Source: Streptomyces katrae
GTDB lineage: Bacteria > Actinomycetota > Actinomycetes > Streptomycetales > Streptomycetaceae
Assembly (NCBI RefSeq): GCF_002028425.1
Contig: NZ_CP020042.1
Span: 2,046,001-2,110,000, forward strand
DNA length: 64,000 bases
Direction: 5' to 3'
Positions within the stretch are counted from its first letter, which is position 1. Every line of letters starts with the position of its first letter. Below, piece after piece: positions 44,088-45,773 of the stretch. Below the pieces are notes generated by a model that saw only the letters and a program-made list of their open reading frames with translations, searched no databases and had not been told where the DNA came from. A program made the translations under genes and the position numbers.

Positions 44088-44744
44088 CTACTTCCCGGCG
44101 GCGTTCTGCTTCTTCTCCTCGGCGTCCTCGATGACCGCCTCGGCGACCTGCTGCATCGACATGCGGCGGTCCATCGACGTCTTCTGGATCCACCGGAACG
44201 CGGCCGGCTCGGTGAGCCCGTACTGCGTCTGCAGGATGCTCTTCGCCCGGTCCACCAGCTTCCGGGTCTCCAGGCGCGCGGAAAGGTCCGCGACCTCCTT
44301 CTCCAGCGCCTTCAGCTCCGCGAACCGGGACACGGCCATCTCGATGGCCGGCACCACGTCGCTCTTGCTGAACGGCTTCACCAGGTACGCCATGGCCCCG
44401 GCGTCCCGCGCCCGCTCGACGAGCTCGCGCTGCGAGAAGGCGGTGAGCATGAGGACCGGGGCGATGGACTCGCCCGCGATCTTCTCGGCGGCGGAGATCC
44501 CGTCGAGGACGGGCATCTTCACGTCGAGGATGACGAGGTCGGGGCGGTGCTCACGCGCCAGCTCGATGGCCGTCTGCCCGTCGCCGGCCTCGCCGACCAC
44601 GGAGTAGCCCTCCTCTTCGAGCATCTCTTTGAGGTCGAGACGGATGAGCGCCTCGTCCTCGGCGATGACGACGCGGGTCGTCAGCGGCGGAACGTGCGAC
44701 TGGTCGGCGTCGGGCGTGGGCGTCGACTCGTGCTCGGCGGTCAC
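44088..44744 (-). CDS. pdtaR: Response regulator with ANTAR RNA-binding output domain
   Basis: A 218-residue regulator of the PdtaR type. The receiver domain (about 23-140) has acidic residues in VIAEDEALIRLDL and the phosphorylated Asp in LVILDVKMPV, with the conserved Thr in MLTAFSQ and Lys in YLVKPFSK. The C-terminal ANTAR domain (about 150-208; KLVDRAKSILQTQYGLTEPAAFRWIQKTSMDRRMSMQQVAEAVI) binds stem-loops in nascent RNA and causes antitermination. The cognate kinase (PdtaS-like) is not in the window. GTG start with GGAG upstream. In mycobacteria PdtaR regulates lipid and metal-related genes; targets here are unknown. Confidence 0.9.
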   Translation of the reverse strand: MTAEHESTPTPDADQSHVPPLTTRVVIAEDEALIRLDLKEMLEEEGYSVVGEAGDGQTAIELAREHRPDLVILDVKMPVLDGISAAEKIAGESIAPVLMLTAFSQRELVERARDAGAMAYLVKPFSKSDVVPAIEMAVSRFAELKALEKEVADLSARLETRKLVDRAKSILQTQYGLTEPAAFRWIQKTSMDRRMSMQQVAEAVIEDAEEKKQNAAGK

Positions 44745-44842
44745 GGGGGCTCCTCTTTGCGGGGCATAACAAGCTCCCCCGAGCCTACCTAGCTCCTGTA
44801 AGGTGGTGCCACGCAGGGATCCCTGATCCCTTCGTTTCTTAG

Positions 44843-44917
44843 GCCCCAGTACTCCAACTGGTCAGAGAGGCCGCTCTCAAACAGCGGACAGTGTGGGTTC
44901 GAATCCCACCTGGGGCA
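44843..44917 (+). tRNA. Atypical tRNA, anticodon CAA (Leu-like)
   Basis: 75 bases fold into a cloverleaf. Acceptor stem GCCCCAG/CTGGGGC with A discriminator; T8; a 3-pair D-stem CTC/GAG with A14 and G18G19 in their normal places; anticodon stem CCGCT/AGCGG with loop CTCAAAC (anticodon CAA at 44878-44880); a 5-base variable loop ACAGT; and T-arm GTGGG-TTCGAAT-CCCAC. CCA is not encoded. Two features are odd. Bacterial tRNA-Leu normally has a long variable arm, and three bases (AGG) rather than one join the D-stem to the anticodon stem. It could be a functional unusual tRNA, a degenerate copy or an integration-site remnant. Confidence 0.75.
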
Positions 44918-44957
44918 CTCTTCCTTAAATTCCAAGGTCGCGAGAGATTCGACGACC

Positions 44958-45026: not shown

Positions 45027-45773
45027 ATGTACGATCTGGCCACTCGCCGACATGCACTCGCTCTCTTGCACGACGGACGCAGTCTGAACTCCGTCAGCAA
45101 GGAGACCGGGATATCCAGGGCGGCCATCCGCTCCTGGCAAGCCCGCATCGAACCACTTCCCCGCCTCAACCAGTCAGCGCCCTGCTCCGGCCCTGCCGAC
45201 GAGACGGCCTACGCATACCTGCTCGGGCTCTATCTCGGTGACGGCTGCATAAGCGACCACCCGCGCGGCGGACAACACCTCCGCGTCTTCTGCGACAACG
45301 CCTGGCCCGGTCTCATCCAGCAATGCCGCACCGCCATCCTGGCGGTGCGGCCGACCGACAAGGTCTACGTGTTGCAGCGCCAGGGCTGCGTTGCCGTCAC
45401 CAGCTACGGGCGGCACTGGACGTGCCTGTTCCCGCAGCACGCGCCAGGGAAGAAGCACGAACGCCGTATCGCCCTCGAACCCTGGCAGCAGGAGATCGTG
45501 GACGCCCACCCCTGGGAGTTCATCCGGGGGCTGATTCACTCCGACGGATGCCGGATCACCAACTGGACCGTTCGGAACGGGAAGCGGTACGAGTACCCCC
45601 GGTACTTCTTCACCAACAAGTCGGATGACATCCGGAAGCTCTGCACCGACACCCTTGCCAAGGTCGGGGTCCAGTGGACCATCTTGGCGCGGGGTAGCGA
45701 CCCCCTGAACGTGTCCATCGCCCGCAAGGAATCCGTCGCCCTCATGGACGCCCACGTCGGGCCGAAGTACTGA
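45027..45773 (+). CDS. Free-standing HTH-LAGLIDADG protein (homing-endonuclease-like)
   Basis: A 248-residue protein. Residues about 8-40 form a helix-turn-helix (RSLNSVSKETGISRAAIRSWQAR) like those of resolvases and transposases. Two LAGLIDADG motifs follow, AYLLGLYLGDG (63-73) and EFIRGLIHSDGCR (164-176). Each keeps the acidic residue (Asp72, Asp173) that coordinates metal in homing endonucleases. The spacing of about 100 residues fits a single-chain two-motif enzyme. It is not inside an intron or intein, but 109 bases downstream of the atypical tRNA. It could be a mobile endonuclease or a domesticated DNA-binding regulator. No ribosome site precedes the ATG. The C-terminus overlaps the convergent GNAT gene by 32 bases. 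Confidence 0.82.
   Translation: MYDLATRRHALALLHDGRSLNSVSKETGISRAAIRSWQARIEPLPRLNQSAPCSGPADETAYAYLLGLYLGDGCISDHPRGGQHLRVFCDNAWPGLIQQCRTAILAVRPTDKVYVLQRQGCVAVTSYGRHWTCLFPQHAPGKKHERRIALEPWQQEIVDAHPWEFIRGLIHSDGCRITNWTVRNGKRYEYPRYFFTNKSDDIRKLCTDTLAKVGVQWTILARGSDPLNVSIARKESVALMDAHVGPKY

Follow-up and report, generated by a model that had tools for sequence, protein, structure and literature searches.

Bacterial leucine tRNAs, as textbooks describe them, carry a long extra arm. In the window, that is, the whole 64,000-nucleotide stretch of Streptomyces katrae DNA analysed here, one tRNA gene combines the leucine anticodon CAA with a variable loop of five bases, and a preliminary description presented it as an aberrant tRNA-Leu, perhaps charged with another amino acid or serving as a regulatory or attachment-site RNA. 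What, then, is this gene, and what has happened at its locus? Here we describe the gene as a new form of tRNA-Leu rather than an aberrant one, and we consider it highly probable that it encodes a functional leucine tRNA that reads UUG without the long arm, at a locus that is a hot spot of replacement (Table 1).

Table 1. The tRNA gene, its neighbours and its flanking repeats in the window
Feature	Position	Strand	Remarks
RR, response regulator with ANTAR domain	44088..44744	-	Divergent from the tRNA; conserved left flank of the putatively exchanged segment
Leader copy of the CCTTCGATTC-like 10-mer, here CCTTCGTTTC	44829..44838	+	Flanks same-genus class I loci
Class I tRNA-Leu(CAA)	44843..44917	+	75 nt to A73, no encoded CCA; variable loop ACAGT
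10-mer of the trailer (CCTTAAATTC, 44923-44932), running on to CAAGG	44923..44937	+	Class I loci
LAG, 248 aa, N-terminal helix-turn-helix and two LAGLIDADG motifs	45027..45773	+	Predicted homing-endonuclease-like fold
LAGLIDADG motif 1 of LAG, LLGLYLGDG, residues 65-73	45219..45245	+	D72 invariant in 26/26 aligned
LAGLIDADG motif 2 of LAG, FIRGLIHSDG, residues 165-174	45519..45548	+	D173 invariant in 26/26 aligned

A leucine tRNA gene with a short variable loop

ARAGORN called a tRNA-Leu(CAA) at 44843-44918 on the + strand and the Rfam model RF00005 matched 44843-44917 with 55.5 bits (E 9.8e-11; gathering score 29), which, together with the loop ACAGT, bears out the CAA anticodon and short variable loop first described. 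T8, A14, G18G19 and the TTCGAAT loop, also named there, can be read directly in the sequence; the minimum-energy fold of the sequence alone gave no cloverleaf. The feature is a real, exactly placed tRNA of class I with anticodon CAA. Taking a variable arm of at least 10 nt as the mark of class II, the window tRNA, with 5 nt, and all 46 family members at the locus fall outside that class.

The D-stem consists of the pairs C10-G25, U11-A24 and C12-G23, followed by a C13.A22 mismatch, and a single base, G26, links the D-arm to the anticodon stem. The anticodon is indeed displaced by two positions, as the preliminary description had it, because the D-loop carries two extra bases (20a and 20b); the three-base AGG link to which the shift had been attributed was an error of register. 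A 13.22 mismatch on a 3-bp D-stem is common to both classes at the locus (G.A in 23 of 24 distinct class II tRNAs, C.A in 45 of 46 distinct class I tRNAs), which removes the suggestion of an altered D-arm geometry. Judged from these alignments, the D-arm is of leucine type.

The 46 distinct class I CAA tRNAs were gathered by synteny, with no tRNA pattern used. Their 7-bp acceptor and 5-bp T stems are intact in every case and the pair 15-48 covaries (A-U in 38, G-C in 8), while 18 have a single anticodon-stem mismatch. In E. coli, the leucine identity set comprises A73, A15-U48, G18G19 and A20a, and tRNAs without a long arm stay active, the arm being dispensable for leucine identity, according to the available part of a review (PMC9976931). 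The window tRNA has A73, A15-U48 and G18G19; A73, A14 and G18G19 are present in 46/46 of the synteny-found class I tRNAs, and the pair 15-48 is A-U in all 24 class II counterparts. Immediately before position 21 the window tRNA has an A, numbered 20b there, the loop numbering being ambiguous with respect to A20a; an A precedes 21 in 38/46 class I and 24/24 class II CAA tRNAs as well. Larger sets of 104 distinct class I tRNAs from genomes and 107 from viruses are circular for C13, A14, A15 and U48, since the pattern that found them fixes these bases, and 17 of 294 distinct leucine tRNAs that could not be parsed were left out of these counts; among the viral tRNAs, 54/107 have an A at the position read as 20a. 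LeuRS most likely accepts the class I tRNA through A73, A15-U48, G18G19 and the 3-bp D-stem with its 13.22 mismatch, and the long arm would therefore not be needed; that LeuRS charges it is what we infer from the published E. coli data.

The nearest known molecule is the bacterial class II tRNA-Leu(CAA), which shares the anticodon, A73, A15-U48, G18G19, the 3-bp D-stem with a 13.22 mismatch and, in relatives, the same syntenic locus, but differs in a variable loop of 13-15 nt against 5 and in G13.A22 against C13.A22. Animal mitochondrial tRNA-Leu likewise lacks a long variable arm and is charged by a LeuRS, as excerpts of PMC9976931 indicate, yet it is organellar, whereas the present form occurs on a bacterial chromosome and in phages. 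A tRNA-Met gene with a changed anticodon, described in the accessible text of PMC8450103, also combines CAA with the lack of a long arm; unlike it, the tRNA reported here has a conserved body of leucine type.

A body pattern that fixes parts of the tRNA body and leaves the anticodon free matched 70 viral contigs. ARAGORN called 72 tRNAs over the match in 68 of these, and 72/72 had leucine anticodons (UAG 26, UAA 20, CAA 12, CAG 10, GAG 3, AAG 1). With an encoded CCA added, the pattern found 25 tRNAs in 23 genome contigs, again with leucine anticodons throughout (25/25), from Actinomycetota, Planctomycetota, Acidobacteria (Pyrinomonadaceae included) and two archaeal bins. In a draw of 298 same-phylum genomes 53 gave matches, and among the matches listed 58 of 59 had a leucine anticodon by eye, the other not being a tRNA. 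Phages and other genomes hold class I tRNA-Leu genes for each of the six leucine anticodons, and phages of Pseudomonas, Microcystis and Streptomyces are among the carriers of such genes. The available text of a 2023 review allows a missing long arm only in animal mitochondria, and our literature search, which took in few of the subscription journals, found no report of a bacterial class I tRNA-Leu.

Contigs of Streptosporangiaceae, Streptosporangium and Actinomadura (L205, L207, L210, L211, L214, L219, L225, L227) carry a class I tRNA-Leu(UAG) with an encoded CCA. Several families of the phylum commonly have tRNA-Leu(UAA) in its class I form (L300-L317), so that the CAA gene is not alone in having lost the long arm. 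Genome G009 has an extra class I tRNA-Leu(UAA) with an encoded CCA (C1:4014655; L057, L203) about 11 kb from its class II tRNA-Leu(UAA), with no mobile-element families in eight nearby ORFs scanned. A plasmid search returned one partial match only, in a chromosome-sized record.

tRNA class beside the response regulator

The comparison took in this genome and 60 relatives, 61 in all. RR was located in 57 of them, and in 56 of those 57 the sequence next to it holds a CAA tRNA, of class I in 42 and of class II in 14; the 36 same-genus loci comprise 27 of class I and 9 of class II. In G048 the piece with RR has no tRNA and another piece holds both the beginning of RR and a CAA tRNA of class I, and in G058 a class I CAA tRNA lies on a piece without an RR match. 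"Aberrant" is a poor name for what is the commoner form at this locus among relatives. That it might be the standard form in all actinobacteria, a possibility raised at the outset, goes too far in the other direction: class I is commoner but not universal, and class II recurs at the same locus.

A tree of RR DNA with 61 rows calls for 14 changes of class to account for its 14 class II rows (shuffled mean 12.8), and its well-supported branches make at least 10 of them unavoidable; the 9 class II rows of the same-genus part (36 rows) call for 9. The detail of the tree is uncertain because it is built from one short gene. We profiled identity in 50-nt windows across five sister pairs of opposite tRNA class. 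RR is about 84-100% identical per window in these pairs; in the last 100 nt ahead of the tRNA the identity drops sharply, and it is low throughout promoter, tRNA and terminator. The point of recovery differs: about +150 to +200 for G041/G049 and, for three pairs, about +600, which falls in the back part of LAG; in G036/G008 identity never recovers, and G008 has no LAG. As a control, tRNA-Leu(UAA), the bldA gene, showed 91-100% identity across 36 of the 37 same-genus genomes. In six pairs with the same tRNA body, tRNA identity is 72-97% and RR is about 92% identical. By these comparisons, the locus flips tRNA class independently of descent.

Two observations concern other leucine tRNAs. G030 gave no match to this genome's tRNA-Leu(UAA), despite a stated completeness of 99%. 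The tRNA-Leu(CAG) gene at G000 C1:3878005-3878087 (L062) is, among the matches listed, 98-99% like only five same-genus genomes and 96% like G054, other same-genus best matches lying near 84-86%; its sequence suggests that it may have been exchanged too.

We suggest that the unit exchanged between strains would comprise the tRNA promoter, the tRNA and the terminator, sometimes together with the front part of LAG. Recombination in the conserved flanks may be the route, and such exchange would flip the tRNA repeatedly between class I and class II. Direct repeats lie around the gene. A CCTTCGATTC-like 10-mer (at least 7/10) starts at -14 to -18 in 27/27 same-genus class I loci (8% of shuffles) and at +5 to +7 in 26/27 (15% of shuffles), as against 1/9 leaders and 1/9 trailers of same-genus class II loci; within the genus these leader and trailer 10-mers set the class I form apart from class II, and the motif was picked after the trailers had been seen. 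A stricter trailer expression matched 24/27 class I and 0/9 class II same-genus loci. A motif-free 12-mer test within the genus gave a mild excess (4/23 with 10 or more positions matching, against 2.6% under the null), a smaller effect than in the motif test, and outside the genus there was no excess of flanking repeats. These 10-mers may mark the exchanged unit or serve processing. A promoter scan near the tRNA found none, one terminator-like stem lies directly upstream of it (44815-44831, against 0.4 expected), and none of nine nearby ORFs scanned is an integrase.

Sister species with opposite forms at one locus offer a direct test of the role of the arm in charging, modification, toxin resistance and ribosome fit.

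LAG and possible causes of replacement

LAG gave a weak helix-turn-helix and a significant LAGLIDADG_3 domain match, and no specific family for it was found in NCBIfam or PHROGs. Its predicted structure (pLDDT 89) matched homing endonucleases in Foldseek, and WhiA tied with the nucleases in Z. WhiA (structure 8dy7), known as a transcription factor and not as a nuclease, is 8% identical to LAG. On this model, LAG is predicted to have a LAGLIDADG homing-endonuclease fold.

The gene is single copy in this genome and was found in 33/61 genomes, and it lies within about 2 kb of RR in 25/25 same-genus genomes that have it. Of the 36 same-genus loci, 17 have an intact copy, 8 a broken one and 11 none, and tandem copies occur in G036, G480 and G494. 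Further LAG loci, 29 of them read from 40 places listed, place it beside a tRNA-Leu in 28/29 (27 with CAA and RR, one with UAG), the remaining one being a piece without a tRNA. Class II tRNA-Leu(UAG) adjoins a LAG homolog in G054 (L298) and G276 (L343), and LAG may therefore be linked to leucine tRNAs of any kind.

We propose from this analysis, giving it a little less than even confidence, that LAG spreads together with a resistant tRNA allele by cutting the sensitive ones. The locus recalls the yeast WHO elements, in which a LAGLIDADG gene behind a housekeeping gene replaces part of that gene (accessible sections of PMC7282813). Those at FBA1 resemble it in the placing of the LAGLIDADG gene, in replacement of the neighbour allele and in broken and tandem copies, and the WHO-type traits of replaced neighbour alleles, discordant phylogeny and tandem LAG copies are all present. 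Unlike WHO elements, the locus is bacterial, its putative target is a tRNA, and it has none of the leftover target fragments that WHO would leave, matches to tRNA fragments behind LAG being no better than reversed or shuffled controls. The homing endonuclease SegB of phage T4 drives inheritance of a tRNA gene region, to go by a title cited in PMC10448857; it belongs to a phage and to a different gene context.

A fuller model, which we regard as possible rather than probable, is a homing element of bacteria that carries along, as its cargo, a tRNA allele essential to the cell. LAG would cut a sensitive tRNA-Leu(CAA), repair would copy the linked resistant allele, and resistance would arise through jumps between class I and class II bodies because the allele must remain a working leucine tRNA. 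Such an element would account for the instability, at this locus, of a tRNA class supposed to be universal, and if LAG is a nuclease it would be gene-drive-like, acting on a housekeeping tRNA.

A serious rival, and one with a real if minority claim, holds that the same functional tRNA is swapped by ordinary homologous recombination under selection, for example for escape from phages or from toxins that cut or modify tRNAs, LAG being a passenger or a WhiA-like regulator. The comparable closeness of the fold to WhiA fits this view, as does the finding that neither LAG status nor the LAG tree follows tRNA class: presence or intactness of LAG showed no correspondence with class at the 36 same-genus loci, and the tree of 26 intact LAGs requires 7 changes of class (mean 7.7 after shuffling). 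For the front half of 17 same-genus LAGs, one clade is 8/8 class I and the other has 4 class I and 5 class II; the tie to class is no stronger there, since the back half fits at least as well (3 against 2 changes, n=17). G041/G049 switched tRNA class while their LAGs stayed alike, class I tRNA-Leu genes are carried by phages, and a mycobacterial toxin recognises the long variable loop of class II tRNAs (PMC11541572, in its available part). Less easily accommodated are the constant company that LAG keeps with tRNA-Leu in the further loci and with RR in all 25 same-genus carriers, its broken and tandem copies, typical of homing genes, and the retention of its motif aspartates, which favour the homing proposal.

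The only CAA tRNA found and the meaning of UUG

The window tRNA sequence is a single match in its own 8.06-Mb genome. Rfam gave 74 tRNA matches there, 12 of them longer than 80 nt (Leu CAG, GAG (three), UAA and UAG; four Ser; one Tyr; one odd Lys call); each of the 12 was read, and the normal class II tRNA-Leu(CAA) that the preliminary description proposed to look for is absent from them. Sequence, Rfam and pattern searches found no second CAA tRNA in this genome. Across the 61 genomes, CAA patterns matched class I once each in 44, class II once each in 13 and both in none; neither matched G032, G051, G060 or G053, the last of which carries a class II CAA tRNA of a kind missed by the class II pattern (in calibration, 23/24 known class II recovered and 0/89 class I). 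Six Streptomyces genomes had one CAA gene each in the accessible data of PMC4932002. Very probably, then, the cell has no leucine tRNA for the UUG codon other than the window tRNA.

Codon meaning was read in 100-kb regions of eight genomes, counting UUG sites present in at least two other genomes; the region of G012, a class I genome, had few orthologs. Leucine was the commonest residue at 125/146 UUG sites in five class I genomes and at 148/169 in three class II genomes, compared with 179/202 and 144/164 for CUU, and in this genome alone UUG aligned with leucine at 10/12 sites. A hint of recoding, extra phenylalanine in class I genomes (pooled 22/295), was rejected once sites were counted singly (6/146 against 4/169). 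These alignments indicate that UUG still means leucine in class I genomes, and the tRNA would therefore be a functional replacement, not a mischarged or regulatory one. The first impression that it looks functional is upheld by its leucine identity elements, by its being the only CAA tRNA found and by the reading of UUG.

It is accordingly most unlikely that UUG is recoded or ambiguous and the class I tRNA charged with another amino acid. The lack of the usual arm could be taken to point that way, and UUG tends to be rarer in class I genomes (0.006-0.024 of leucine codons, against 0.022-0.043 in class II), but these ranges overlap and are raw values uncorrected for GC content or descent, UUG aligns with leucine as often as CUU does, and the E. 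coli leucine identity elements outside the long arm are in place. A pseudogene, regulatory RNA or attachment-site remnant is barely credible, for although the gene changes fast for a tRNA, is flanked by direct repeats and has four partly unrelated tRNA-like genes elsewhere in the genome, its stems are intact with 15-48 covarying, its body is of leucine type, each genome has one CAA tRNA with the two classes mutually exclusive, and no integrase is among the ORFs scanned.

Those four genes (G000 C1:345142, 2129689, 2130365 and 6893445; L072, L073, L074) score low, have odd anticodon calls and share a similar GAGGACGCCGGTTCGAATCCGG-like 3' part, possibly as a family of tRNA-like elements. A further tRNA-like gene, L071 (G000 C2:171690-171774), was called Lys(CUU) by ARAGORN; its long arm and G73 look serine-like.
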